From the NCBI GenBank assembly GCA_014621425.1, contig JAANBB010000010.1, forward strand, positions 186,001-250,000: a stretch of DNA of 64,000 nt, in the 5' to 3' direction. A model generated the notes under the pieces. The model did no database searches and was not told the DNA's origin. It saw only the letters and a program-made list of their open reading frames with translations. The position numbers and the translations under genes are program-made. The first letter of the stretch is position 1. Every line of letters begins with the position of its first letter. Below are positions 4,982-62,728 of the stretch, in pieces. Source of the DNA: Cylindrodendrum hubeiense (lineage: Eukaryota; Ascomycota; Sordariomycetes; Hypocreales; Nectriaceae).

Positions 4982-7489
4982 TTAGATCGCAAGAACAGCA
5001 AGGACACCCATGGCCACGGCGATAAGACCGGGTGCGTTCCAACCGGCAGCGCCAGTGACAGGCACAGGGGTGCTAGATGCCTCTTCGCCGGAGCTAGAAG
5101 AACCGGTAGTCTCGGGGACAAATGGAACCTTTGCTGTAGAGGTGTAGAATCCCACAGCAGTTGTGCTGTTGACTGCCACAGCGTAGGTGGAGTAGCTAGC
5201 AACCGAGGTGGCCTGGATGTACTCGGAAGTCGCGGGCACGATCACAACATAGGTGGTGGACGAGGAACCCTCGACGCAGCCAGACTCCTCCTCGCTGCAG
5301 TCAACTGTCTTCTGGACAGTATACGTGGCAGGAGCAGTATTAGCGGCAGGAGTAGTTTCCTGGGTGACAACCTGTGTGTAGCTGTAAATCTCCGTTGTCA
5401 CATCCGCTCCGCTGCACTCATCGCCAACACAAGCCGGAATGGTAACCACGCGCGTCCTGGTGGTGGTGAGCGTAGTAGTACCGGTTGTTGGGGCAGCAGT
5501 GGTGCCGGGGGCGTAGGTGGTGAATGAAGTCAGAACCTCGGTTGTGATGGATCCAACAGGGCAGTTGGTAACGCTGGACGGGCAGGCTGTGACAGTGTAG
5601 ACCTTGGTAGCGGTGATGGTTGATGTCAGAGCCTCCTCAGATGGAGCACTTGTGACTTCAGCCTCGTAAGACGAGGCCCCAGTCTCCTCAGAAGGAACAC
5701 TTGTGACGCCAACCTCAGTGATCGAGGCCTCGTAAGACGTAGCCTCAGCCTCGGTTTCAGTTGCAGGGCAATAAGTCGTGTACGAGGTGATGATCTCAGT
5801 GGTGACGGAGCCAACAGGGCAGTTGGTGACAGTGGGAGCGCAAGAGGTGATGGTATAAACCTTGCTGGTGGTGATTGTCGAGGTCAAGGTCTCAGGAACG
5901 CTCGCAGTCACCGACTCGCCGGAGTTAGCGCTTGAGGTAACTGGCACAGGAACACTCGCGGTCACCGATTCACCAGAGTCAGCGCTTGACGTGACTGGCA
6001 CGGGAACGCTCGCGGTAACCGACTCGCCGGAATCAGCGCTTGAAGTGACTGGCACAGGCACGTCCACGGTCTCGCTCGCAGGGCAGTAGGTGGTATACGA
6101 GGTGACAATCTCAGTTGTGATGGAGCCAACAGGGCAGTTGGTGACAGTGGGAGCGCAAGAGGTGATGGTGTAGACGCTGGTAGTTGTGAAGGTCGAGGTC
6201 AATGTCTCATCAGGAACACTCGCGGTCACTGATTCACCGGAATTGTCACTTGTCGTGACAGGCGCCTCAGGAACAATGCTCGTAGTCAGGGTTCCTTCGG
6301 GAACACTCGCAGTCAGTGTTCCTTCGGGAACGCTGGCGGTCAGGGTCTCGCCGGGAACGCTGGCGGTCACCGATTCGCCGGAATCAGCGCTCGACGTAGT
6401 TGGCACGGGAACATCCTCAGTCTCGGTCGCGGGGCAGTAGGTGGTGTAAGATGTGACGATCTCAGTGGTAACAGAGCCGACGGGGCAGTTAGTCACGGTG
6501 GGAGCGCAAGACGTGATGGTGTAGACATTGGTGGTGGTGAATGTCGAGGTCAAGGTCTCAGGAACGCTCGAGGTCGCCGATGCACCGGAGTTATCACTCG
6601 ATGTGACAGGGACGTCAGGAACGCTCGAGGTCACCGACTCGCCGGAATCATCGCTCGACGTAGTTGGCACGGGAACATCCTCAGTCTCAGTCGCGGGGCA
6701 GTAGGTGGTGTAAGATGTGACGATCTCAGTTGTAACAGAGCCGACGGGGCAGTTAGTCACGGTGGGAGCGCAAGATGTGACGGTATAGACGCTGGTGGTC
6801 GTGAAGGTTGAGGTCAAGGTCTCGGGAGCCGGGGTGGATGCAGTGATGGAGGCACCGGGAGTGGTCTCTGGGCCGGAACTGGATGTGGCAGACTCGTCAC
6901 AATCATCCGTGGTAGAGCCTGGGGTCTCATAAACGGCTGTGGAGGTTTCCTCGTAGGGGCCAGGGGTGGTCGTTTCCGAGCCAGAGCCAGGTGTAGTCGC
7001 TTCCGACGTCGGGGCTTCCGTGGAGGACTCGTCACAGTCCTCGGTGGTAGAGCCTGGAGTCTCGTAAACGCTTGTGGAGGTTTCCTCGTAGGGGCCAGGG
7101 GTAGTCGTTCCTGAGGCTACGGCTTCCGTGGAAGATTCGTCACAGTCCTCCTCCGTCGTGGTGCCGGGCGTCTCATAAACCGAGGAGGTTTCTGAAACTG
7201 GGGCCTCCGTAGAGGACTCGTCGCAATCCTCGGTAGCCGAGGGGCTCTCCTCAACAGTGATGGAAGTCTCAGAGGCGGCAGCTGAAGAGAAAGAAATCAA
7301 AGTCTCGCTGGCAACGCCAGAAGTCGCAGTCTCGTCGTCGCAGTCCTCCTCCTTCGAGTGGGAGCGGGTATAATGGTTTAGGACAGCACCCTGGGTCTCG
7401 GAAATGGCAGCCGATGTCGAAACGTCGGCAGCATAATGAGCGACCACGAGAACGGGCACCGCCGCAAATGTCAAAAGAGTGGGAAGCAT
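4982..7489 (-). CDS. Ser/Thr-rich GPI-anchored cell-wall mucin with tandem repeats
   Basis: Single exon, 835 aa. The N-terminus is a signal peptide (MLPTLLTFAAVPVLVVAHYA). Residues about 40-210 carry an acidic cysteine-bearing repeat (core DCDESSTEA) separated by Thr/Pro/Gly spacers. Next come five copies of a repeat of about 57 residues whose core contains TSCAPTVTNCPVGS and TTYCPATETE. They are divided by Ser/Thr linkers that themselves contain PVPVTSSADSGESVTAS repeated three times. The C-terminus ends in a small-residue site followed by a hydrophobic tail (GLIAVAMGVLAVLAI), as in GPI signals. The protein should be heavily O-mannosylated and wall- or membrane-anchored; adhesion or surface shielding is the likely role. 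The regular cysteines in each repeat set it apart from simple mucins. No catalytic domain is visible. Nearly identical repeats make copy-number change and assembly error both plausible. Confidence 0.85.
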   Translation of the reverse strand: MLPTLLTFAAVPVLVVAHYAADVSTSAAISETQGAVLNHYTRSHSKEEDCDDETATSGVASETLISFSSAAASETSITVEESPSATEDCDESSTEAPVSETSSVYETPGTTTEEDCDESSTEAVASGTTTPGPYEETSTSVYETPGSTTEDCDESSTEAPTSEATTPGSGSETTTPGPYEETSTAVYETPGSTTDDCDESATSSSGPETTPGASITASTPAPETLTSTFTTTSVYTVTSCAPTVTNCPVGSVTTEIVTSYTTYCPATETEDVPVPTTSSDDSGESVTSSVPDVPVTSSDNSGASATSSVPETLTSTFTTTNVYTITSCAPTVTNCPVGSVTTEIVTSYTTYCPATETEDVPVPTTSSADSGESVTASVPGETLTASVPEGTLTASVPEGTLTTSIVPEAPVTTSDNSGESVTASVPDETLTSTFTTTSVYTITSCAPTVTNCPVGSITTEIVTSYTTYCPASETVDVPVPVTSSADSGESVTASVPVPVTSSADSGESVTASVPVPVTSSANSGESVTASVPETLTSTITTSKVYTITSCAPTVTNCPVGSVTTEIITSYTTYCPATETEAEATSYEASITEVGVTSVPSEETGASSYEAEVTSAPSEEALTSTITATKVYTVTACPSSVTNCPVGSITTEVLTSFTTYAPGTTAAPTTGTTTLTTTRTRVVTIPACVGDECSGADVTTEIYSYTQVVTQETTPAANTAPATYTVQKTVDCSEEESGCVEGSSSTTYVVIVPATSEYIQATSVASYSTYAVAVNSTTAVGFYTSTAKVPFVPETTGSSSSGEEASSTPVPVTGAAGWNAPGLIAVAMGVLAVLAI
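5540..6850 (-). repeat. Five tandem ~57-aa coding repeats in the mucin gene
   Basis: The block encoding VTNCPVGS followed by TTEI and TTYCP recurs five times at roughly 250-350-bp intervals (near 5550, 5810, 6130, 6480 and 6750). Copies are highly similar at the DNA level, with the copy nearest the C-terminus the most diverged. This suggests recent expansion by unequal exchange. Confidence 0.8.
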
Positions 7490-17482: not shown

Positions 17483-18893
17483 GATGTTTGGGTGTGGTAG
17501 CTCGGTGTTGTTGAATACGAATGGTTTGGATTCTAGCCTCTGAATGCTGGGAACTGCTCTAAAGCGACCTCTTTATACAAATGCGATAATACCGGAGATT
17601 GATGAAATCACGCGGAGTGAGGCAAAATGCGGAGCGGGGCAACGCGTTGATTATGGCATCAATTGCCAGGATTGAATGTACGAGGTTCTATGTAAGCTAC
17701 GTATCTGAAGCAGCGATATGTCGGGTTCGGGTTCGGGTTCGGATTCGTCCCTATACTGCCTAGTCGACTGGAAACCGAGCGAGCTTATATTTGAACGAGC
17801 CGCCTCCCAACCGCATGAGAGCTTGCGGGGCGGACTTTCAATCAATTTCATGCGCTCCAGCTACGTGGCGTGTTCCAGGCACTCGAAAATTCCGGAATGG
17901 CTTACACCGTCAACTGTCGAATTTGAATAACTGGTGCATTTAGCGACGCAATTACTGCACCACCATAGCGCGACGTGCGAAGAGCTGCTAATATCGGGGT
18001 CTCGGGGCTTGACTCTCTCCGGGCCTTAGGATCTCACTCTCCCGCATAAGCTCGTCAAACTCCATGCTTCATGCGTACAGTCGCACTAGAAGCCTTTGTG
18101 ACATCACCTTGAATCACCAGCAGCCCGTACTTGTCGCCCACCAGCCCCTCAGAAAGGCTATTGATGAATTTCTGATTGAGTACCCTCGTACCTTCTGCGA
18201 TCGGCTAGTCTGCCTTATTCTCGCGCGGGACAAAAGACCACCTCCTCAATCAGTAGGATGAAATATCATGCTAATAGCATGTTAATACACGGAAGGAGTA
18301 TTGGAAGACTGACATTGCCCTCCACAAAACTACCCAAAGCGTCCTGGATTGTGGTGAGAAAATCAATGACACAGTAACTAATGGCGATAGTAAGATTCCA
18401 TTCAAAAACGGTTTATGTCTACCTTTCCGTCGCTATCCCTTAGGCCATCATATTATGGTTCCCAAAGTCCGAATATCCAGTCATTAATATTAGCTAGCAA
18501 AGTGCATTTAGAGTAACAACTTAAACCCGCCAACTGTCGGCCGAGCTTAAACTCCAGAGGAGAACTCCATACAACGACAGAAGCTCACTCAACCACTCTT
18601 AGGCGCCTCGTAGCTAGCCTTAGAATGTCGTCATTGCTTTTCCTGCTGTGTGTCACATTAGAACGCCGCCAAGGTCGTTTACCAGAGGATTGACTGTTAT
18701 AAACTAAATGGCCAGCGATATCAGCATTCCGCAGACACTCAGACTTATCAAACACATCTCGGCCACTTACACCCTAAGTATGCCAGACATACCAGCGTGC
18801 TGGTATAAATAGACAAAGTAAGGAACCGGAACAGGTTACTTACATCCTAAACTTTGGGGTTTATTAGCACACCACTGCCCATCAGACTCATCG
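17483..18893. other. Intergenic; downstream part has extra splice-donor-like sites
   Basis: 17483-18600 shows no gene; a short GGTTCG microsatellite lies near 17725-17748. On the minus strand, two further GTAAGT donors (starting 18843 and 18770) follow the coding end of the microexon gene, each with an AG only 3 bp before it. They may belong to an alternative 3' end of that gene. Confidence 0.5.
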
Positions 18894-19857
18894 CTAACCA
18901 TTGATCATGCACTTACACACAAAATCCCATTTATCAAAACATCTATCACCGCGGCCACTAGGGCGGCAACGAAGATCACCGCAACAATCCCAACTATCCA
19001 CGCAACGTTCGGTTTTTTTCTTGCATACCTTGCGTTCACAACCCTCATTAGCATATCGCTACCAAACAGACTCCTCGGTATACTGGCTCGGTACTCACAA
19101 ATGGGATACATTGGCCCTTCAACAAAGCACCACTGGTTCCGATGTTACACGTTAAGCCCTATTGTTTTCTGCATTAGCTCGCTGCTATCGGTTCAAGTCT
19201 TCATCGAGGACTTACATCACAGCATCGCTATAACGTTCCCAGCCGTATCAGCATGCGACAGTCGCTCTCTCAATGAACCATCGGTTAGATACTTACGTTG
19301 CGAAAGGTCGCACACTAGAGCAAACATTAGTTTTAGCATGATTCGTTATTGGGCTGTTATTTCATAATCGGGATGGGTACGTACTCCAATCTTCAGGGTG
19401 TCAGCTATATTGACAGATTGCTAGAAATCAGACGTTTCATTGTCGGTAGGTAACGACTTACTTGCAACTGAGTGTTTGCCAGCCATGTCAGCATTTTCCC
19501 ATGGTTAATGATAGCATGTACAACTTACAAGACCCTAGCGTGCCAAAATAAGCATGTCAACTCCAATCAGGCTACTTTGTCAATCCTGAGTTATGTACTT
19601 ACGACGCACTAAGTTTTCCAGTTGCGTTAGTATGATAGTACCAATGAGGGTTGTACGTATAGACTGAAGAAACGCTACAGGCAACCTGAATAGACACGTA
19701 CTTGTTGTGCTGATTCGGCTTCTGCCACTGATTCGGCTTCCGCCACTGATTCGGCTCCTCCCACCGATCTTGCCTCTACCCCTGATTCTGATTCTGCCAT
19801 TGGTCCAGCTACTGCCAGTCCTGCAAGAAAGGTAAAAAGAGCAATAAAGACCTTCAT
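18894..19857 (-). CDS. Secreted double-knottin-like cysteine-rich protein built from microexons
   Basis: Proposed exons: 19857-19702 (156 nt), 19608-19603 (6), 19534-19529 (6), 19467-19462 (6), 19390-19385 (6), 19314-19297 (18), 19227-19216 (12), 19116-19099 (18) and 19058-18894 (165); 130 aa. Every exon is a multiple of three and every intron is phase 0. Donors are GTAAGT, GTACGT or GTGAGT, and introns are 61-99 nt except the last (40). Exon 1 encodes a signal peptide (MKVFIALFTFLAGLAVA) and an acidic pro-region with repeated AES triplets. The microexons together give a cysteine frame C-x7-C-x6-CC-x3-C, completed by the last exon (x9-C). The last exon alone holds a second frame C-x6-C-x5-CC-x4-C-x8-C-x7-C-x-C. 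Both fit the inhibitor-cystine-knot layout. Function is unknown; defence peptide, effector or enzyme inhibitor are all possible. Open points: the last acceptor could instead be after 19029 (70-nt intron, better branch point, odd cysteine count), and the 3' end may be spliced further. Confidence 0.68.
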
Positions 19858-22086
19858 ATTGGTAATCAAGTAGCAATAGAATTTCCAAAGGATGGATAAT
19901 AAGCAACAGATGTTGTTTCGTATGTGTTCCTGAGTTGTAATGACAACATATGTGTATTCCAGTTGCCTTTATATCTATCATGTCTCTATATCCCGATAAG
20001 TGGCAACAAGCGGGGATTCCTAGAGACGGTGTTCGGGTTAATCTTGGCAGTCCGTTTCCCAACGGAGGTTGCATTTCAGTTCGTTACCAATAGAACAAAT
20101 AGTAACCAAGTACGGTTCAAGACACACATGTGAAGTCGGGCCGCATAGAGATCAATCTCGACCGGGCGGTGAGACAGAGGGCGATTTGTCGTTTTTATAC
20201 TCGGGCGTAATAGGTCTTGAGAACAACTAATCCGCTATAATTCCGAGCATACATAACCCCTCTCTGTCTCGCACGTAGTATCCATTAAAGATAAACCATG
20301 TCTTACCAATTGTCCACGTCATGACTTGAATATCGAGACATGCGCGGAGAAATGACACAGAGAGGGGTCACGCCACGCAAATAGCAATACTGAGACAAAG
20401 GGCAACGCAGAGTGCGATGTACGCAATGGTGATGTTAGTTTGTTTCTTCACATCAAGATGGATGCGGAGTCAATTCCCTTAGAAATGACTGCCACTCAAG
20501 CTCACTCCGACTTAGGTTAAAGCAGCATCAGGCTAAGACTCGACAGGAAATTGAGAGTTTTCGGGGCAGCCTTTGTGGCACGCACACTTCTGTATTGTAT
20601 TTAATCATCTACGCAGACCAGCAAGGTAGTCGCTGATCTTGGATCTCAGCCCCAGCGGATTTGCGGCTACGTCCACCAGTAAAGGGGACTGGTGAAGGTA
20701 GTTAAAGCGTAAAAGGGGTCAGAGATTGATTTGATAATTTGTCTGGCTGAAGGTTTGGGCCCGGTTGCGAGCTACTGACCAAGACTGAGGCTGGCAATGG
20801 CGAGTCATAACCGAGCCAATCAATACGTCCTGATACGCCCATGGATTAAGCTCAGTCTCTTAACTCAGCGATATGAACTAAAACTATGCATCTATCGTTT
20901 GATTATATTTGTTTCGCTAGCGCCTGTAAATCGGCGAAATTATCACATTGGCTGCCAAGCGAGTTGAGATTTTCTCCTCTCCAATCGCTTCATCTCCAGC
21001 AAACACTCCCCTCAATTTCTGGGGTCTGTTCATTGCGACATCATTCTCCGTTTCTAATTTGTGAGACCGAGCACTGGAAGTGCAACTCATCTCATAATGA
21101 GGCGAAATCTATATTGACATTTTCTCATTTGAACTCTTTCGGATCCAAGTGCCCGCTAACGTTGTTGGTTCGGGGGTGAGCGAGCCCATCTCGGCTCTAC
21201 GGATGAAGATCATACCCCGACTCCCTGGAAACGTGTCGAAGAAGCTTGCGTCATACGAGAGGAAATTTGGCGTACTTCTAAAAAGGGAAATAGCTGGTTC
21301 TTCAGTCTTTGGTGGCCGTGCTGCAAACTTGAACAGTTGTGAGGCCTTGGATCGACTTGACTATCAGACCCTATGGCGAGTCAGTTTCAGAGCACATTCC
21401 CGAGCTGATTGACCAAAATGTTACCCTTAAGCTTATTTGAGCATAGCTCATGTTTGCCTCAGCACAAACTGAAAATGGGCTGATAGGCGAATGATCTGAG
21501 ACAATCGGTATTATTTAAGGCAAGCCATTGGCTGTGGCGTTGTCGCATTCAATTGTTTGCTCTACAGTGTATTTAGCAGACTATGAGTAGCAACTAGTTT
21601 GATTGGGTATCACTTTCTGCTTTTCTCATGCTCGTTCAAATCACGACTGTAAAATATAAATTTACATCAATGACAGGAGCGAAACGAATGACTTTTAAAA
21701 TTGATGGTAATGTATGCGGATGTTCAACCACCATAGTCTCCCAAGCGGTGTATTTTGCCCTTTATCGAGCCTTGTGTGAGACACTCGCCGAAGATAATTC
21801 CCATTTTCTTTAAGATATTATCTATTTATGACTGCACTGCTGCCTAGATGGTCCTAAAATACAAATGTTGGTTCCATAGCCTCAATGGTTTCAGCTGTGG
21901 CTCGTATACGTGTATATTTGATCAAGTCCTGCACGATTAGTCATATCCACTCTCGTTGAACTTCAGCAGGCAGCAGGCTGACTGTCTCAAGGCTGACTGT
22001 CTCACAAGTACCGCACCCTTCCTTTCGATGTCAAAAGCTGGACACGATTGTTCAAAAGCTTTAAACAATTTCTCCCGTCGCCAAAC
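19858..22086. other. Intergenic between divergent microexon gene and NAAA-like gene
   Basis: Besides the TATA box there is a near-perfect inverted repeat of about 14 bp (CCCCTCTCTGT-type arms near 20257 and 20352). Short frames (20886-21179, 21149-21412, 21628-21813, + strand) have no domain signature. I see no gene that I can support. Confidence 0.5.
19968..19975 (-). promoter_or_regulatory. TATA box of the microexon gene
   Basis: On the minus strand the sequence reads GATATAAAGG about 115 bp before the start codon, a standard distance. This supports transcription starting just upstream of exon 1. Confidence 0.5.
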
Positions 22087-55553: not shown

Positions 55554-55721
55554 CGATAAGCATCTGTTTAATCACGATCCTAGGGTCGGCGGATACACCC
55601 GAGGTGGCTGAATTGTGGCCAGTGTCTCATCAAGACAATTGCCCCAGCGCAATTGCACCGACCTCTCGGCCGCAGATCAACAACAGAACAGATACACATT
55701 GCTCGGCACAAGAGACAGGCC

Positions 55722-55728
55722 TTTAAAA
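55722..55728 (+). promoter_or_regulatory. TATA-like element of the polyketide synthase gene
   Basis: TTTAAAA lies 106 bp upstream of the chosen start codon. It is followed by a C/T-rich leader up to the ATG, as in many fungal promoters. Confidence 0.45.
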
Positions 55729-55833
55729 TGCCTGCATCCCCTCCCCGTCTCTCGACCCAGGATCCAGGCTCCAGGCTCCATCATCTCTTTGCAATACCCC
55801 CCTTCCTCCAGCTCTGGTCCACACCCGCCCATC

Positions 55834-58800
55834 ATGTCTGCCACCAACAGTGCGCCTCACCTGGCGCCCATTGCCATTGTGGGCATGTCCTGTCGCCTCT
55901 CGGGTGATGTCTCCACCCCGGAGGACTTCTGGACCCTCCTGTCCCGCTCGCGCGACGGATGGAGCCCCGTGCCCAAGGATAGGTTCTCGAGCGACACCTT
56001 CTACCACCCGAACCCGCAGAAGAAGGGTTGCTTCAACTTCAAGGGCGGCTACTACATGAAGCATGATATGTCAAAGTTTGACGCGCCGTTTTTTCACATC
56101 ACCGCCCCGGAAGCCATGGCCATGGGTATGTAACATGCCCCAGCTTCGTTGTTAGACGAGCGTTGCGTGAGCTCACACAGATATGATATAGACCCCCAGC
56201 AACGGCAACTGCTAGAGTGCACCTACGAGGCGCTTGAGAATGCCGGCATCACCAAGGAGGCCATCGCCGGGCGCAACATGGGTGTCTTCATCGGCGGCAA
56301 CTCATCAGACTACCATCTGGGGTCTCTGAAGGAGTTGAATCAGGTGCCCATGTTCGACTCAACGGGTAACCACCAGTCTATTCAGGCCGGTCGCCTCTCA
56401 TATTACTTCGACCTCCGCGGGCCCTGCTTCGCCGTCGACACCGCCTGCTCGTCCGGGCTGTACGCGCTTAATTCAGCAGTCCAGGCCATCCGCTCTGGCG
56501 ACGCGGACTCGGCGATTGTAGCAGGCTGCAGTCTTCATCTGCAGCCCGACGAGATGATCTCCATGTCCATGCTGGGGTGAGTGCTCAACTGAAACTCTCA
56601 CTTGAACTGAGGCTGACCGTGTTAGTATCTACAACGACGAGGGAAAGACATTCGCCTTTGACCACCGCGCCAAGTCCGGATTCGCGCGAGGTGAGGGCGT
56701 CGGCTGTCTGGTTCTCAAGCCTCTAGACCAGGCCATAAAAGACAACGACAAGATCCGCTCAGTCATTGTCAACAGCGGCATCAACCATGACGGAAAGACT
56801 GTTGGTAAGTCATGTCGCCGTCCCCAATTTCACCAGTAATGCTAACATGTTAGGCCTCGCAACACCCAACGGTCACGCGCAAGAACAGCTCATCCGCGAC
56901 GTCTACGCGCGCGCAGGCATCTCCCCCGACGACACGGGCTTCGTTGAGGCTCATGGCACAGGCACCAAAGTCGGTGACCCCATCGAGGCCGGTGCCATCT
57001 ACCGCGTCTTTGGACCCGGGCGCACAAAGAGGTTCCCGTTATATATGGGATCCGCCAAGACAAACTTCGGTCACTTGGAGAATGCGAGCGGTCTTGTTTC
57101 CATCATCAAGGCGTCGTTGATGCTCGAGAAGGGCTTCATCCTACCCAACGTCAACTTTGAAAAGGCCAACGAGGCGATCCCACTAGACGAGTGGAACATT
57201 AAGATTCCCCACACCACTCGGCCGTGGCCAAAGAACAAGCGCTTCATTAGTGTGAATAACTTTGGCTTTGGTGGCTCCAACGCTCACGTTGTTCTGGAAC
57301 GCCCCCCGCTCTGTATTTCCGACCTCCCGCAAAGCTCTAAAAGCGAGATCCCCAAGCTATTTGTGCTGTCTGCCAACGATGAGGAGGCCGCAAAGCGCGT
57401 GGCGTCCCAGCTCGGTGTCTACATTGAGCAGCATCCCGAGGTCTTCCAAAAGCGTCTCACAAGCGATATTGCTTACACACTTGGCGAGCGAAGGAGCCAT
57501 CACTCCTGGCGCATTGCCCTCGTAGGCACATCCTGCGACGATCTCGTCGTCTCCCTGAACGGAAGCGGCGCCATCCCCGCGCGAGCACCTACCACGGCTC
57601 CCAAGATCGCCTTCGTATACACTGGCCAAGGAGCACAATGGCCTCAGATGGGCAGGGAACTTTTGGACACCAACCTTGTCTTCGCCGAGACCATGAAGGC
57701 TGCCGCAGATCACCTGAAGCAGATTGGCGCTGACTTCGACCTTCTGGAGGAACTATCCAAGGGCGAGGGAGAGTCCAACATGGACAAGGCACACATTGCC
57801 CAGCCCATCTGCACAGCCATCCAACTGGGTCTCACAGACATGATCGCAACCTGGGATGTAAAGCCCTCCATGGTCATGGGCCACTCCAGCGGTGAGATTG
57901 CCGCGGCCTACGCCACTGGCGCCATCACACTCCAAGACTCGATGGCTATTGCGTATTATCGCGGTCAACTCGCTTCCAAGCTGAAGACCAAGAACCCAGA
58001 TCTCCGTGGAGGTATGCTTGCAGTCGGCGCCGGAGCCGCTGAGATCAAGACAACCATCAAGATCCTCGGCCTTCAAAACATCACCATCGCGTGTGAGAAC
58101 TCGCCCAACTCGGTGACAGCGTCGGGTGACGAGGATGATGTCGATGCGCTCGCAGCTGAGCTCAAGAAGCGAGAGGTTTTCCACCGCAAGTTGCGAGTTG
58201 ACGTGGCCTACCACTCGGCCCACATGCAGCTTGTGGCTGACGAATACCTGGAGTCTATCAAGGACACGATCCCCAAGATCACCGAGGAGGTGGCGTTCTA
58301 CTCCTCACTCCTCGGCAACAAGCTGGACCTTACGGCCTCGCTTGGTCCTTCGTACTGGGTTGAGAACCTGACCAAGCCAGTCCTGTTCAACTCGGCGCTA
58401 CAGGAGCTCTACAACGATGGCAAGCCCGATGTCATCATCGAGATCGGCCCCCACGCTGCATTGAAGGGTCCCATCCAGCAGATCCTCAAGAGCATCAGTC
58501 AGCAGGCGGCCACCGAGGTCAAGTACTTCTCCTCGCTTGTGCGCAACCAGGATGCTACCGCCACAACGCTCAAGCTCGCCGGCGATTTATACATCAAGGG
58601 CCAGCCTCTCAACTTCAGCGTTATCAACCAGACAGAGCCCGGCGCGCAGAAGCCGGCCCTCATCTCCAACTTTGCTCCCTACCCTTGGGCACCTCACAAA
58701 TACTGGTCTGAGTCACGAGCGAGCAAGCAGCATCGCCTCAAGCCCTTTGGTCGCCATGACCTTCTCGGTGTTCTGGAAGACACTTACAGCGATGCCGAGC

Positions 58801-61800
58801 CTACCTGGCGCAATACGCTCAACCTTGACGATGTTCCATGGCTCAAGGATCACCGGATGCAGTCTCTACCGACATTCCCGCTTGCTGGATATCTGTGCAT
58901 GGCCGTCGAGGCCGCTTCTCAGAGAGCGCAGTTGAGGGGCATCACACGCGCGCAGATTACTGGGTTCCGCCTTCGCGAGATTCAAGTATCCAAGGCATTT
59001 ATTCTCGACCCCGCTGCCCAGTACGAAACCATCTTCTGTCTGAGCCCCTACGCCGAGGGAATGAGGTCGTACTCTAATGACTGGGACGAGTTCCGTATCT
59101 CATCGTGGACTGCGAGCAGAGGTTGGCTAGAGCACTGCCGTGGCCTCGTTGGAGTGAGGCAGCAGCGCAATGCCAACCCTGTCAGCAACCCTCAGCTCCT
59201 GGTCGCCGCTTCTCACCGCAAGCACATCATGGAAGCCCAAGGTGCAGAGTTATCTCTGGATACGTTCTACTCCGAGCTGGAAGCTCAAGGAGCCGGCTAC
59301 AGCCAAGCCTTCAAGTTCCAGCCTGGCTGCGGTCTCAGAGCGCGTGGAGAATACTCTGCCAGTACCATCGTGGTTCCTGAAACCGCATCTTATATGCCGT
59401 CGGTCCACGAGACGCCGTCCATCTTGCCGGCTGCATTCATGGATCTCTGCTCACAGCTGATGTTCCCCATTCTCGGCGCTGGACGCGGAGAGATGCCGTC
59501 GCTGTTCATGCCCTCGGCCATCAAGGAGGTTGAGTTCACCAACAACTTCCCTAGCCTGCCTGGTGAGAAGGCCCAGGTTGTTGTACATGGCCGCCCAGAC
59601 TTTGCCAGTCCTGGACCCGTTGACTTCTTCATCACCGCCTGGAATGACGCGCACACTGAGCCCGTGGCCAAGTTCTCCGGTTTCAGAATGACACCCGTGT
59701 CTAGCGACATCATGGATTGTGAGACCCCACGCTCTTTGTGCTACAAGGTTCAATGGGAACCTCTCGATAAGACAGTCGAGGCAGTGAAGGAGGAGGTAAA
59801 TGGTGAAACGCAGCAACCCAATGGTGTCGTTCACGAGCCGATTCCGTCAACTGACGTCGATCTCAAAGACGCTGAAATTGTCATCATTACTGACAAGACT
59901 GAATCTGATCCATTGGTCTCAGCAGTTTCTCTTGTCATGGAGGCGCACACTGGGTCTAAGCCGTCAATCTCCTCTTTGGCCGGGCTCCAGCCTTCGCCCA
60001 CAGCCCGTTACATTTGCTTGGCGGAGCTCGATGCACCTGTGCTGTACAACATGTCATCCGACACTTTCGCACAGGTTAAGCAGTTGCTGCTCGTATGCTC
60101 CTCAATTATTTGGGTCACCAGCGGTGCCTACCGCTTTGCTGATAAGCCTGAGAACAACATTGCTCAAGGTCTGCTCCGAACAGTCCGCTCGGAGAACAGC
60201 AAGGTTGCGGCGACCCTCGATCTGGAGCCGAATTCCAAGCTCGAGGCCTCAGAGCACGCCAACCTCGTCTCTCGCGCTTTGATATCCTCCCTAGCTACTC
60301 CCGCAGATGGCTCACCAGTCGACTTCGAATTCTCCGAAGAGAATGGAAAGCTCGTAGTTCCCCGCGTCGTGCAGCATGAGGATATGAACCTCACCGTCTT
60401 CCGTGAGACGCAAGTCTCTGCACCCTACCTTCAAGACTTTGAGCAGCCTGGTCGCCGCCTAAAGCTTGCTGTTGGCACATTGGGTGCCTTGGACTCCCTG
60501 TACTGGAAGGACGAGGCTGATCTTCCTCTACCCGCCGACGACGTCGAGATCAAGGTCACAGCCACGGGAATGAACTTTAAGGATGTTGTCATCGCCATGG
60601 GACAGGTTGCCAGCCCTTACATCGGTGTTGAGTGCAGTGGTATTATCTCCAAGGTTGGATCCAATGTCACTTCTCTCCAGGTTGGTGATCGTGTCTGTGC
60701 CATGTCACTGGGAGCATACAGCACCTATACTCGCTGCCCGGCTACGAGTGCGGCTGTCATTCCCGATGACATGAGCTTTGAGACTGCGGCTTCCATCCCC
60801 GTCGTCTACAGCACCGCTTACTATGGCATCATCAACCTGGCCCGTATGGAGCCCGGCGAGAGGATCCTTATCCACGCCGCCTCTGGCGGAGTTGGCCAAG
60901 CAGCGATCCAGCTCGCACAGATGATCGGCGCCGAGGTTTACGCGACTGTCGGTAGTGCCGAGAAGAAGCAGTTGCTCATCGACACATACGGTATCCCCGA
61001 GAACCGCATCTTCTACAGCAGAGATATTGAGTTTGCCGCCGCCGTCAAGGAGGCTACTGGTGGTGAAGGTGTTGATGTTGTAATCAACTCGCTCGCCGGA
61101 GACATGTTGCGCGTGACGTGGGAGTGCCTCGCCCCCTTCGGACGATTCATCGAGATTGGCAAGAGGGACATCACTTCCAACACCAGGCTGGAGATGGCCA
61201 AGTTCGAGCACAACTGTAGCTTCAGCTCTGTCGACTTGACACTCGTGGCCGGTAAGAGGCCCTTGATTATGGGGCGCGTCCTGACTGCCGTCATGGGCCT
61301 GCTGTCAAAGAAGACGATCAAGCCCATTGGACCCATCACCACCGTGGCCATCTCGGATGTCGAACTCTCCCTGCGCAAGCTGCAAAGTGGTAAGACTTCT
61401 GGCAAGGTCATTGTCAGCCATGTCAACAACGAGAAGGTCAAGGTAAGCAGCTGAAACAGCCCAGCACATTTAATACTGAATAGCTAACCTAAATATTCAG
61501 GTCACCCACCCAATCTCAACCGCCGATATTCTTCATGGAGATGTCACGTACCTCATCATTGGTGGTACCGGTGGTCTTGGCCGCTCCATGGCCCGAAAAA
61601 TGGTCCAGCGTGGAGCTCGACACATCGTACTCTTGTCCAGGAGTGGCAAACTAACCAGCGAGCTTGGCAAGCTGATTAAGGACAGCCAAGCCGTTGGGGC
61701 TTCAATCCACGTCAAGTCGTGCGACGTCGCGGACGAGGATAGTGTCGATTCTCTTGTAGCCGAGCTACAGCAAGACTTGCCTCCAATCCGTGGTATTATT

Positions 61801-62728
61801 CACGCCGCCATGGTGCTCATCGTATGTGTTAGATTACTTCAGCGAATGTTCTTATGCTAACAGGGAGTAGGATGTTCTCTTTGAGAAGATGACCTTTGGG
61901 GACTACGAGAACGTCACCCGGTCCAAGGTCAATGGCGCGTGGAACTTCCACAATGCTCTCACTGGCACCCCCCTGGACTTCTTTATTGTCCTATCATCCG
62001 TCGCCGGAATCGTGGGTAACAGAGGTCAAGCTGCGTACGCTGCTGCCAACACCTACCTCGACGCCTTCGTCCGGTTCCGTGCCCGTCAAGGTCTGGCAGC
62101 GTCGTCTCTGGATCTCACCGCTGTTGAAGGCGTTGGCTACCTTGCTGAGAACACGGATCGACAGTCCCAGGTCCTGAAGAACCTTTCAGGCAACACTTTG
62201 AACGAATCTGAGGTTCTGGCACTGGTCGAGGCCGCAATCGTGGGTAAGGTGACTACGGCTTGCGACGGCCAGTGTGTCACTGGTTTGAGCTTTGAGAACC
62301 CAGCATCTCTGCCATACTACGCCTCTGACGGCAAGTTCTCTCACCTCCGCAATGCCGCATTGGCCAATTGCCTGGATGCCGACGGGTTGGATGGAGGAGC
62401 CAACCTCCTCATTTCGCAGCAGCTCCAGCAAACCACCACAGAGCAGGACGCCCATGAGGTGGTCACTTTGGGAGTCCAGGAGAAGCTGGGCGCCATTCTG
62501 ATGCTGCCCCCTGAGGTTATGGCTGCTGAGCAGGGCAAGTCGTCCATCACTGCCCTGGGTCTGGACTCACTCAATGCCATTGAGCTACGAAACTGGATCG
62601 GCAAGGAGCTCCATGCTCATTTGCAAGTGTTGGAACTTCTCACAAGTGGAACGATGATAGATCTGTCGGCTTTAATTCTCCGGAAGACCAGCCTCAAAGG
62701 CGTTTGGTCCAAGGTGGAAGAGGCATAA
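55834..62728 (+). CDS. Highly reducing polyketide synthase, KS-AT-DH-ER-KR-ACP
   Basis: Exons are 55834-56125, 56192-56576, 56626-56804, 56854-61442, 61501-61821 and 61871-62728; introns 49-66 bp; 2207 aa. Start ATG 55834 opens MSATNSAPHLAPIAIVGMSC. KS: Cys183 in VDTACSSG, His319 in EAHGTGT, His359 in NFGHLE. AT: FVYTGQGAQWPQMG and Ser630 in GHSSGE. DH: His952 in DHRMQSLPTFP and Asp1149 in FMDLCSQ. ER: NADPH motif AASGGVGQAA near residue 1630. KR: GGTGGLGRS near 1836, with LSSVAG and Tyr1978 in AAYAAANTY. ACP: Ser2155 in LGLDSLN. No methyltransferase motif is seen between DH and ER, and there is no thioesterase, so release needs a partner such as the FSH1 hydrolase next door. The product should be a largely reduced, unbranched chain. 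The DH motif has Ser where Gly is usual (H-x3-S). The fungal type I iterative class is certain. Confidence 0.96.

Follow-up and report, generated by a model that had tools for sequence, protein, structure and literature searches.

A Candidate Microexon-Built Gene for a Secreted Double-Knottin Precursor in Cylindrodendrum hubeiense

Comparable gene formats

The micro-exon genes (MEGs) of schistosomes consist of short in-phase exons flanked by ordinary end exons, and their product is secreted. The double-knot spider toxin (DkTx), from an animal venom, contains two cystine knots in tandem. The locus described here recalls both. It lies on the minus strand of a stretch of 64 kb (the window, to which all coordinates refer) within contig C2 of the genome of the fungus Cylindrodendrum hubeiense (47.5 Mb, 798 contigs). 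Between positions 19857 and 18524 of this window there is very probably a gene for a secreted precursor of 127 residues with a signal peptide, an acidic pro-region and two tandem knots, which is split by microexons and belongs to a set of genes marked by a conserved stretch at their 3' side (the 3' tag). It is probably a fungal micro-exon gene of this tag-marked family.

Like the MEGs, the locus has short in-phase exons and a predicted secreted product; unlike them, it is fungal and its microexons make up only 54 of the 384 coding nucleotides, hence a minority of the coding region. The likeness considered here is one of format. In its sequence signals this format, consecutive in-phase exons of at most 36 nucleotides (nt) in a gene for a secreted protein, is found for E2 to E7 and for E10 and E11 (exons are numbered from the signal-peptide exon 1 to E12). 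With DkTx, the likeness is one of arrangement only. The bicycle genes of aphids, which encode putative effectors, are described as having many small exons, almost all in phase 2, with about 17 exons on average (PMC9168663). The locus shares with them the many small exons of nearly uniform phase, but here the phase of E2 to E9 is 0 instead of 2.

In fungi, secreted knottins such as those of Histoplasma and Avr9 of Cladosporium fulvum are likewise small and secreted and have a six-cysteine knot (PMC4503680). In contrast to these, the locus has two tandem knots and a microexon chain, and the resemblance drawn here is one of description; the word "microexon" is absent from the excerpted text of that paper. 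A 2024 abstract presents a functional microexon in the transcription factor Xlr2 of Trichoderma virens as the first for filamentous fungi (PMC11121469). The common point is a microexon in a filamentous fungus, and the difference is that it is single and not part of a secreted-peptide chain. Introner-like elements of fungi are also copied introns, whereas at this locus the resemblance is confined to its own introns. Among the matches listed, titles and abstract openings in the literature contain no description of a fungal micro-exon-chain gene, and on its sequence this would be a gene type hardly described in fungi.

Parasitic worms and aphids have micro-exon genes whose products are secreted. 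A chain of eight microexons in a fungal gene for a secreted knottin, with tag-mates that also seem to have 3-nt exons, would, if true, represent an independent origin of the format and show intron multiplication within a single locus. It would also suggest that annotation misses similar genes for secreted peptides in fungi.

Exon chain and predicted product

From 19857 to 18700, the minus strand carries 11 strong donors (GTAAGT, GTACGT or GTGAGT), mostly spaced by 70 to 80 nt, at 19701, 19602, 19528, 19461, 19384, 19296, 19215, 19098, 18916, 18843 and 18770. The whole strand of the window has 46 of them, 11 falling inside this single kilobase; among the counts listed, the runner-up 1-kb stretch of the same strand outside the locus has 5. 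Chains were searched for in which a strong donor is combined with an intron of 45 to 110 nt with a branch-point match and an exon of 3 to 120 nt in multiples of three. The longest in-frame chain comprises 8 introns at the locus. The plus strand yields no more than 2, as does the minus strand once the locus is masked, and of 150 simulated 64-kb sequences (Markov-1), 120 had a longest chain of 1 and 30 one of 2. Throughout the genome, triple GTAMGT donors with gaps of 50 to 80 bases occur five times, three times in the locus (two at its start, one at its end) and once each on contigs C473 and C777. Since the reversed control pattern gave 35 matches, this count alone is no evidence; the evidence is the concentration at the locus. 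The preliminary description held the cysteine spacing spelled by the microexons to be unlikely by chance; the chance probability of the pattern of the first knot, estimated below, is about 2.6e-7, and the chain of 8 compares with at most 2 in the simulations.

Exon 1 (19857..19702), taken as a signal-peptide exon beforehand, begins with MKVFIALFTFLAGLAVAGP, signal-peptide-like by eye; it comprises this start and the pro-region (MKVFIALFTFLAGLAVAGPMAESESGVEARSVGGAESVAEAESVAEAESAQQ), ends in phase 0 and is followed by a GTACGT donor. Intron 1 (19609..19701) has 93 nt and the signals GTACGT...ACTAAC...TTAG; its donor with the bases that follow, GTACGTGTCYAT, recurs in L008, a paralogue treated below. 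Then come the 6-nt microexons E2 (19603..19608, TGCGTC, Cys-Val), which supplies Cys1 of knot 1, E3 (19529..19534, GGTCTT, Gly-Leu), E4 (19462..19467, TTGCAA, Leu-Gln) and E5 (19385..19390, ATTGGA, Ile-Gly, with a GAAG acceptor), of which the last three each contribute two residues to loop 1. E6 (19297..19314, 18 nt, TGTGCGACCTTTCGCAAC, encoding CATFRN) brings Cys2, and E7 (19216..19227, 12 nt, CGATGCTGTGAT, encoding RCCD) brings Cys3 and Cys4. These six microexons of 6, 6, 6, 6, 18 and 12 nt hold as first described: all are in phase 0 and run from an AG to a GTAAGT or GTACGT donor, most with a CTRAY-like branch point. Versions of E5 with 20 and 36 nt were discarded because of a stop and a 41-nt intron.

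A seventh microexon of 18 nt (19099-19116) had also been proposed. The piece is indeed in frame; its size, however, is better read as the 60 nt of E8 (19099..19158, GLTCNIGTSGALLKGQCIPF), which carries Cys5 and Cys6. The 18-nt version requires a GAAG acceptor and an intron of 99 nt. In gagctaatgcagaaaacaatag, the branch point gctaatgc is followed about 5 nt on by a CAG, judged too near, and about 14 nt on by AATAG. With the latter acceptor the intron has 57 nt and the exon 60 nt, in the same frame and free of stops; this is the preferred model. A 34-nt E8 with the acceptor ACCAG was rejected, as the frame is shifted and meets a stop after ...LRG. The 112-nt E9 (18917..19028) contains knot 2, VCKKKTERCVDSWDCCGDLRCRPSGRGDRCFDKWDFV, and the first base of the following codon. 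Knot 1 would accordingly be divided among seven small exons (6, 6, 6, 6, 18, 12 and 60 nt) and knot 2 contained in a single one.

The gene probably does not end where it was first thought to; the chain runs on through the donors at 18916, 18843 and 18770 and would include three further introns and two 3-nt exons. Intron 9 (18847..18916, 70 nt) is followed by E10 (18844..18846, GAT), whose junction with E9 would create a TGA stop (T|GA) and leave a product with exactly twelve cysteines. Intron 10 (18774..18843, 70 nt) reads GTAAGT...ACTTAG, with no branch-point match found in it, and is followed by E11 (18771..18773, GGT). Intron 11 (18704..18770, 67 nt) ends at a TTTAG acceptor at 18704, beyond which the last exon E12, as 3' untranslated region, covers 18524..18703, with a provisional 3' end. 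The usual rule for nonsense-mediated decay involves a distance of 50-55 nt; the later exon joins lie 1 and 4 nt past the stop and are too close for decay under this rule. Were intron 9 retained, the protein would end in ...CKCMING at a TAG (18896-18894) with fourteen cysteines. Were GAT skipped, the frame would run on for 40 codons (WFYNSQSSGKRPWRRS...VVE) and meet a stop bordering on the 3' tag.

Splicing in fungi usually proceeds by intron definition, in which introns are recognised as units and exon size has no lower limit. The introns of the locus, mostly of about 70 nt and with strong donors, would be spliced out singly in this way. Exons of 3 to 6 nt would then pose no obstacle provided that every such intron brings a donor, a branch point and an acceptor of its own, and all of them except intron 10 do.

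Conceptual splicing yields the product MKVFIALFTFLAGLAVAGPMAESESGVEARSVGGAESVAEAESVAEAESAQQ-CVGLLQIGCATFRNRCCDGLTCNIGTSGALLKGQCIPFV-CKKKTERCVDSWDCCGDLRCRPSGRGDRCFDKWDFV, with 127 residues from a coding region of 384 nt. The acidic pro-region contains ESVAEA repeats, and all joins are in frame. The six-cysteine knot spacing is present twice in the corrected product, as C-x7-C-x6-CC-x4-C-x12-C in knot 1 and C-x6-C-x5-CC-x4-C-x8-C in knot 2; L008 has the spacing of knot 2. These spacings were counted by eye, because alignments of the short cysteine domains were unreliable. With the 60-nt E8, the spacing C-x7-C-x6-CC-x3-C given in the preliminary description changes to that of knot 1, and the cysteine count falls from 13 to 12. 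Random codons drawn at the composition of the locus would produce C-x6-8-C-x4-7-CC-x3-5-C-x6-13-C from the first microexon residue onward with a probability of about 2.6e-7; this figure uses ranges fixed post hoc and leaves out of account the freedom of splice-site choice, a guessed factor of about 10.

For the knot of E9, the best of five single-sequence structure models has a predicted local distance difference test score (pLDDT) of 72.6, and its weak structure matches are mostly cystine-knot peptides, DkTx chains (2naj, 3j5q, 5irx) among them. The predicted knotted fold would have the disulfides I-IV, II-V and III-VI. No Pfam knottin model gives a match above its cut-off, which leaves the fold possible, and Rfam gives 0 matches over 18300-20100. 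A sequence search of solved structures with the uncorrected mature peptide gave only Gremlin-2, in two rows, at E=1.1. Among 5.8 billion proteins no homologue was found at E<=1, with 383 candidates for the uncorrected protein, 0 for that of L008 and 1855 for an alignment (A6) that includes the corrected protein. Homologues with microexon genes would evade such a protein search if other annotations omit the same exons.

The likely role would be that of other secreted fungal knottins, namely that of a stable peptide of an effector or antimicrobial type, which acts outside the cell on other organisms. The suggestion that skipping of microexons could produce loop-length variants fits E3 to E5, whose omission would shorten the loop between Cys1 and Cys2 by two residues each while the cysteines are kept, and loop 1 may be adjustable in this way. 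It does not fit E2, E6 or E7, since their skipping would remove knot cysteines and break knot 1.

Tag-marked genes and the origin of the introns

As a query, the signal exon matches L008, on the same contig about 105 kb away, at E=0.003 with 56% over 34 residues; 16 of the first 19 residues are common to both. L008 begins with MKVSIALFTLLTGLAVAGP, has one knottin, ECGRQNAFCVGSGDCCSGFECVSRPSLSVCKKED (C-x6-C-x5-CC-x4-C-x8-C), and has the same first donor. The reverse query with L008 matches exon 1 only, and a second copy of the E9 knot was not found in the genome at E<=10.

The full locus DNA matches four other places, in each case just a stretch of about 50 bp 3' of the gene. This 3' tag (18524..18585, with a core of about 50 bp, GTCGTTGTATGGAGTTCTCC..TGGAGTTTAAGCTCGGCCGAC) is common to six genes of the genome. 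The copy on contig C13 as query recovered the same five places, and a 22-base tag pattern with at most 3 mismatches gave six matches in the 47.5 Mb, the sixth being L008, as against 2 for the reversed control. Five copies match over 42-63 bases at 88-96%, and that of L008 is more diverged. Each of the six tags sits just 3' of a gene that looks small, has a start resembling a signal peptide (by eye) and shows a knottin or lectin pattern, and the 22-bp tag may be used to find more such genes. A hairpin of 17 pairs can be drawn in the tag, with 4 pairs changed on both sides and a covariation term of -0.72; this covariation is slight, and too little for a claim of RNA structure.

Four of the six encode knottins, namely the window gene, L008, L004 (C-x6-C-x12-CC-x4-C-x12-C) and L005/L020 on C13 (C-x6-C-x4-CC-x4-C-x10-C). 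The knottin of the last continues into some 150 residues that consist mostly of Gly-Ser repeats, a tail unusual for a secreted knottin. The other two encode lectins: L003 matches Pfam RicinB_lectin_2 (PF14200) at E=7.8e-14 (52.6 bits, cut-off 25.6), and the ricin-B-like L002 was found with L003 as query at E=4.7e-5 and aligned to it. L002 (C488) and L003 (C502) have signal-like starts, common intron positions and, like the knottins, the 3' tag. L039 (C468:125047-125139), partly related to the 3' part of the L003 lectin (65% over 31 residues), carries on its minus strand an apparent broken-off start of the tag, GAGCTTTTGGTCGTTGT, and is perhaps a truncated duplicate.

Candidate 3-nt microexons are also found in three of the other five genes. 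In L003 the signal exon can be joined in frame to the lectin exon via exons of 3, 9 and 3 nt, with introns of 52, 71, 61 and 70 nt. L008 has a candidate 3-nt exon GAG, and a candidate GCA exon of L002 lies within one alignment column of the 3-nt CTG exon of L003. L002 and L003 share an intron ending in CAAG, which supports the use of AAG acceptors. For L004 and L005, an ordinary two-exon reading suffices. Relaxed sites for 3-nt microexons number four on both strands of the 64-kb window; E10 is one of them, and E11, without a branch-point match, falls outside the set. The regions around the first introns of L003, L008 and L002, which total about 0.69 kb and were picked after the sites were seen, have five sites, one of them discounted because it overlaps the donor of exon 1, where about 0.02 are expected from the background. 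Each case is uncertain, as some donors are weak; the excess itself is certain.

As to the introns of the locus, numbers 3, 6 and 11 have a common 3' half including ATGCTGAYAYSGCTGG, and introns 8 and 9 agree at 76% over 34 bases, nearly in register (E=4e-4). Six of the 55 intron pairs score above all 200 shuffles. With the whole locus as DNA query, no intron copies were found elsewhere in the genome, only the 3' tag being matched, and a genome-wide introner family was thereby ruled out. Because the introns are alike locally and no copy of them was found elsewhere, the chain seems to have grown by intron copying inside the locus; the copies involved would be 3/6/11 and 8/9. An intron of an ordinary-looking gene (L012, C764:496-511) has in common with intron 3 the 16-nt motif ATGCTGACATGGCTGG, along with a few bases next to it, by chance or by intron transfer.

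Weighing the readings

The microexon-built, secreted double-knottin gene of the preliminary description thus survives as the best reading, with support from its five tag-mates (three knottins and two lectins); that description erred at one exon boundary and at the 3' end, and this earlier reading of the locus had missed the paralogues and the 3' tag. A version in which the chain is real and the gene is exactly as first drawn, with an 18-nt seventh microexon (GAAG acceptor at 19117), the stop TAG at 18896-18894, an unused donor at 18916 and 13 cysteines, is improbable. It is in frame, its spacing C-x7-C-x6-CC-x3-C-x4-C weakly matches Pfam Conotoxin (E=0.0072, below cut-off), and a second branch-point-like site, ggcttaacg, follows AATAG, so it might occur as a minor isoform; but it implies an odd number of cysteines and a 99-nt intron, skips ACCAG and, given the first branch point, also AATAG, and disregards three strong donors and the introns of about 70 nt at the 3' end. 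Little probability, too, is given to a knottin gene that is in decay or was disrupted not long ago. In such a gene, intron copies would have accumulated, the "microexons" would be leftovers, and inefficient splicing would go with a low yield of product. The resemblances of introns 3/6/11 and 8/9 would suit it. Two further points speak for decay and weigh against the double-knottin gene: the 3-nt exons at the 3' end contribute nothing to the product, and the genome search with the E9 knot gave no second copy. Against decay, the frame is kept across 8 introns without a stop, twelve cysteines stand at knot spacing and the donors are strong throughout.

All pieces are multiples of three, so that skipping would keep the frame open, and repeated stwintrons are reported from the Hypoxylaceae. 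It could thus be imagined that the signal exon, E8 and E9 are the sole real exons and that the region between them consists of long or nested/recursive (stwintron-like) introns, with the 6-nt pieces as splicing intermediates. Without E2, E6 and E7, however, knot 1 loses Cys1, Cys2 and Cys3-Cys4, all of which are at knot spacing, and we find this explanation highly improbable. Finally, the evidence is drawn from the DNA sequence alone, and it might be asked whether chance produced the pattern where no gene exists; the donor density, the six tags, the chain test, the knot-1 probability and the excess of 3-nt exons, when combined, make this scarcely credible.

Starting from the double-knottin gene in the tag-marked set, a wider proposal may be formulated, although we consider it rather doubtful. 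The set would be one of dispersed "cassettes", in which a related 5' signal exon and a 3' tag that is conserved and perhaps structured surround knottin or lectin cores, and microexons of 3 to 18 nt would have been added by local copying of introns of about 70 nt. Loop 1 might then be tuned to 7, 5, 3 or 1 residues, and GAT might act as a stop switch: when it is included, the protein would end in ...FDKWDFV, and when it is skipped, a basic tail of 40 codons would be added up to the stop at 18585-18583, at the tag edge.

Elsewhere in the window, large reading frames on the plus strand (55615-62728) resemble, by eye, those of a polyketide synthase and would mark a secondary-metabolite gene in the same region; other frames resemble a transporter and an oxidoreductase. 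On the minus strand, 4982-7489 encodes a Ser/Thr-rich repetitive protein of 835 residues with a signal-like start and a hydrophobic C-terminus, which by eye resembles an anchored cell-surface protein.
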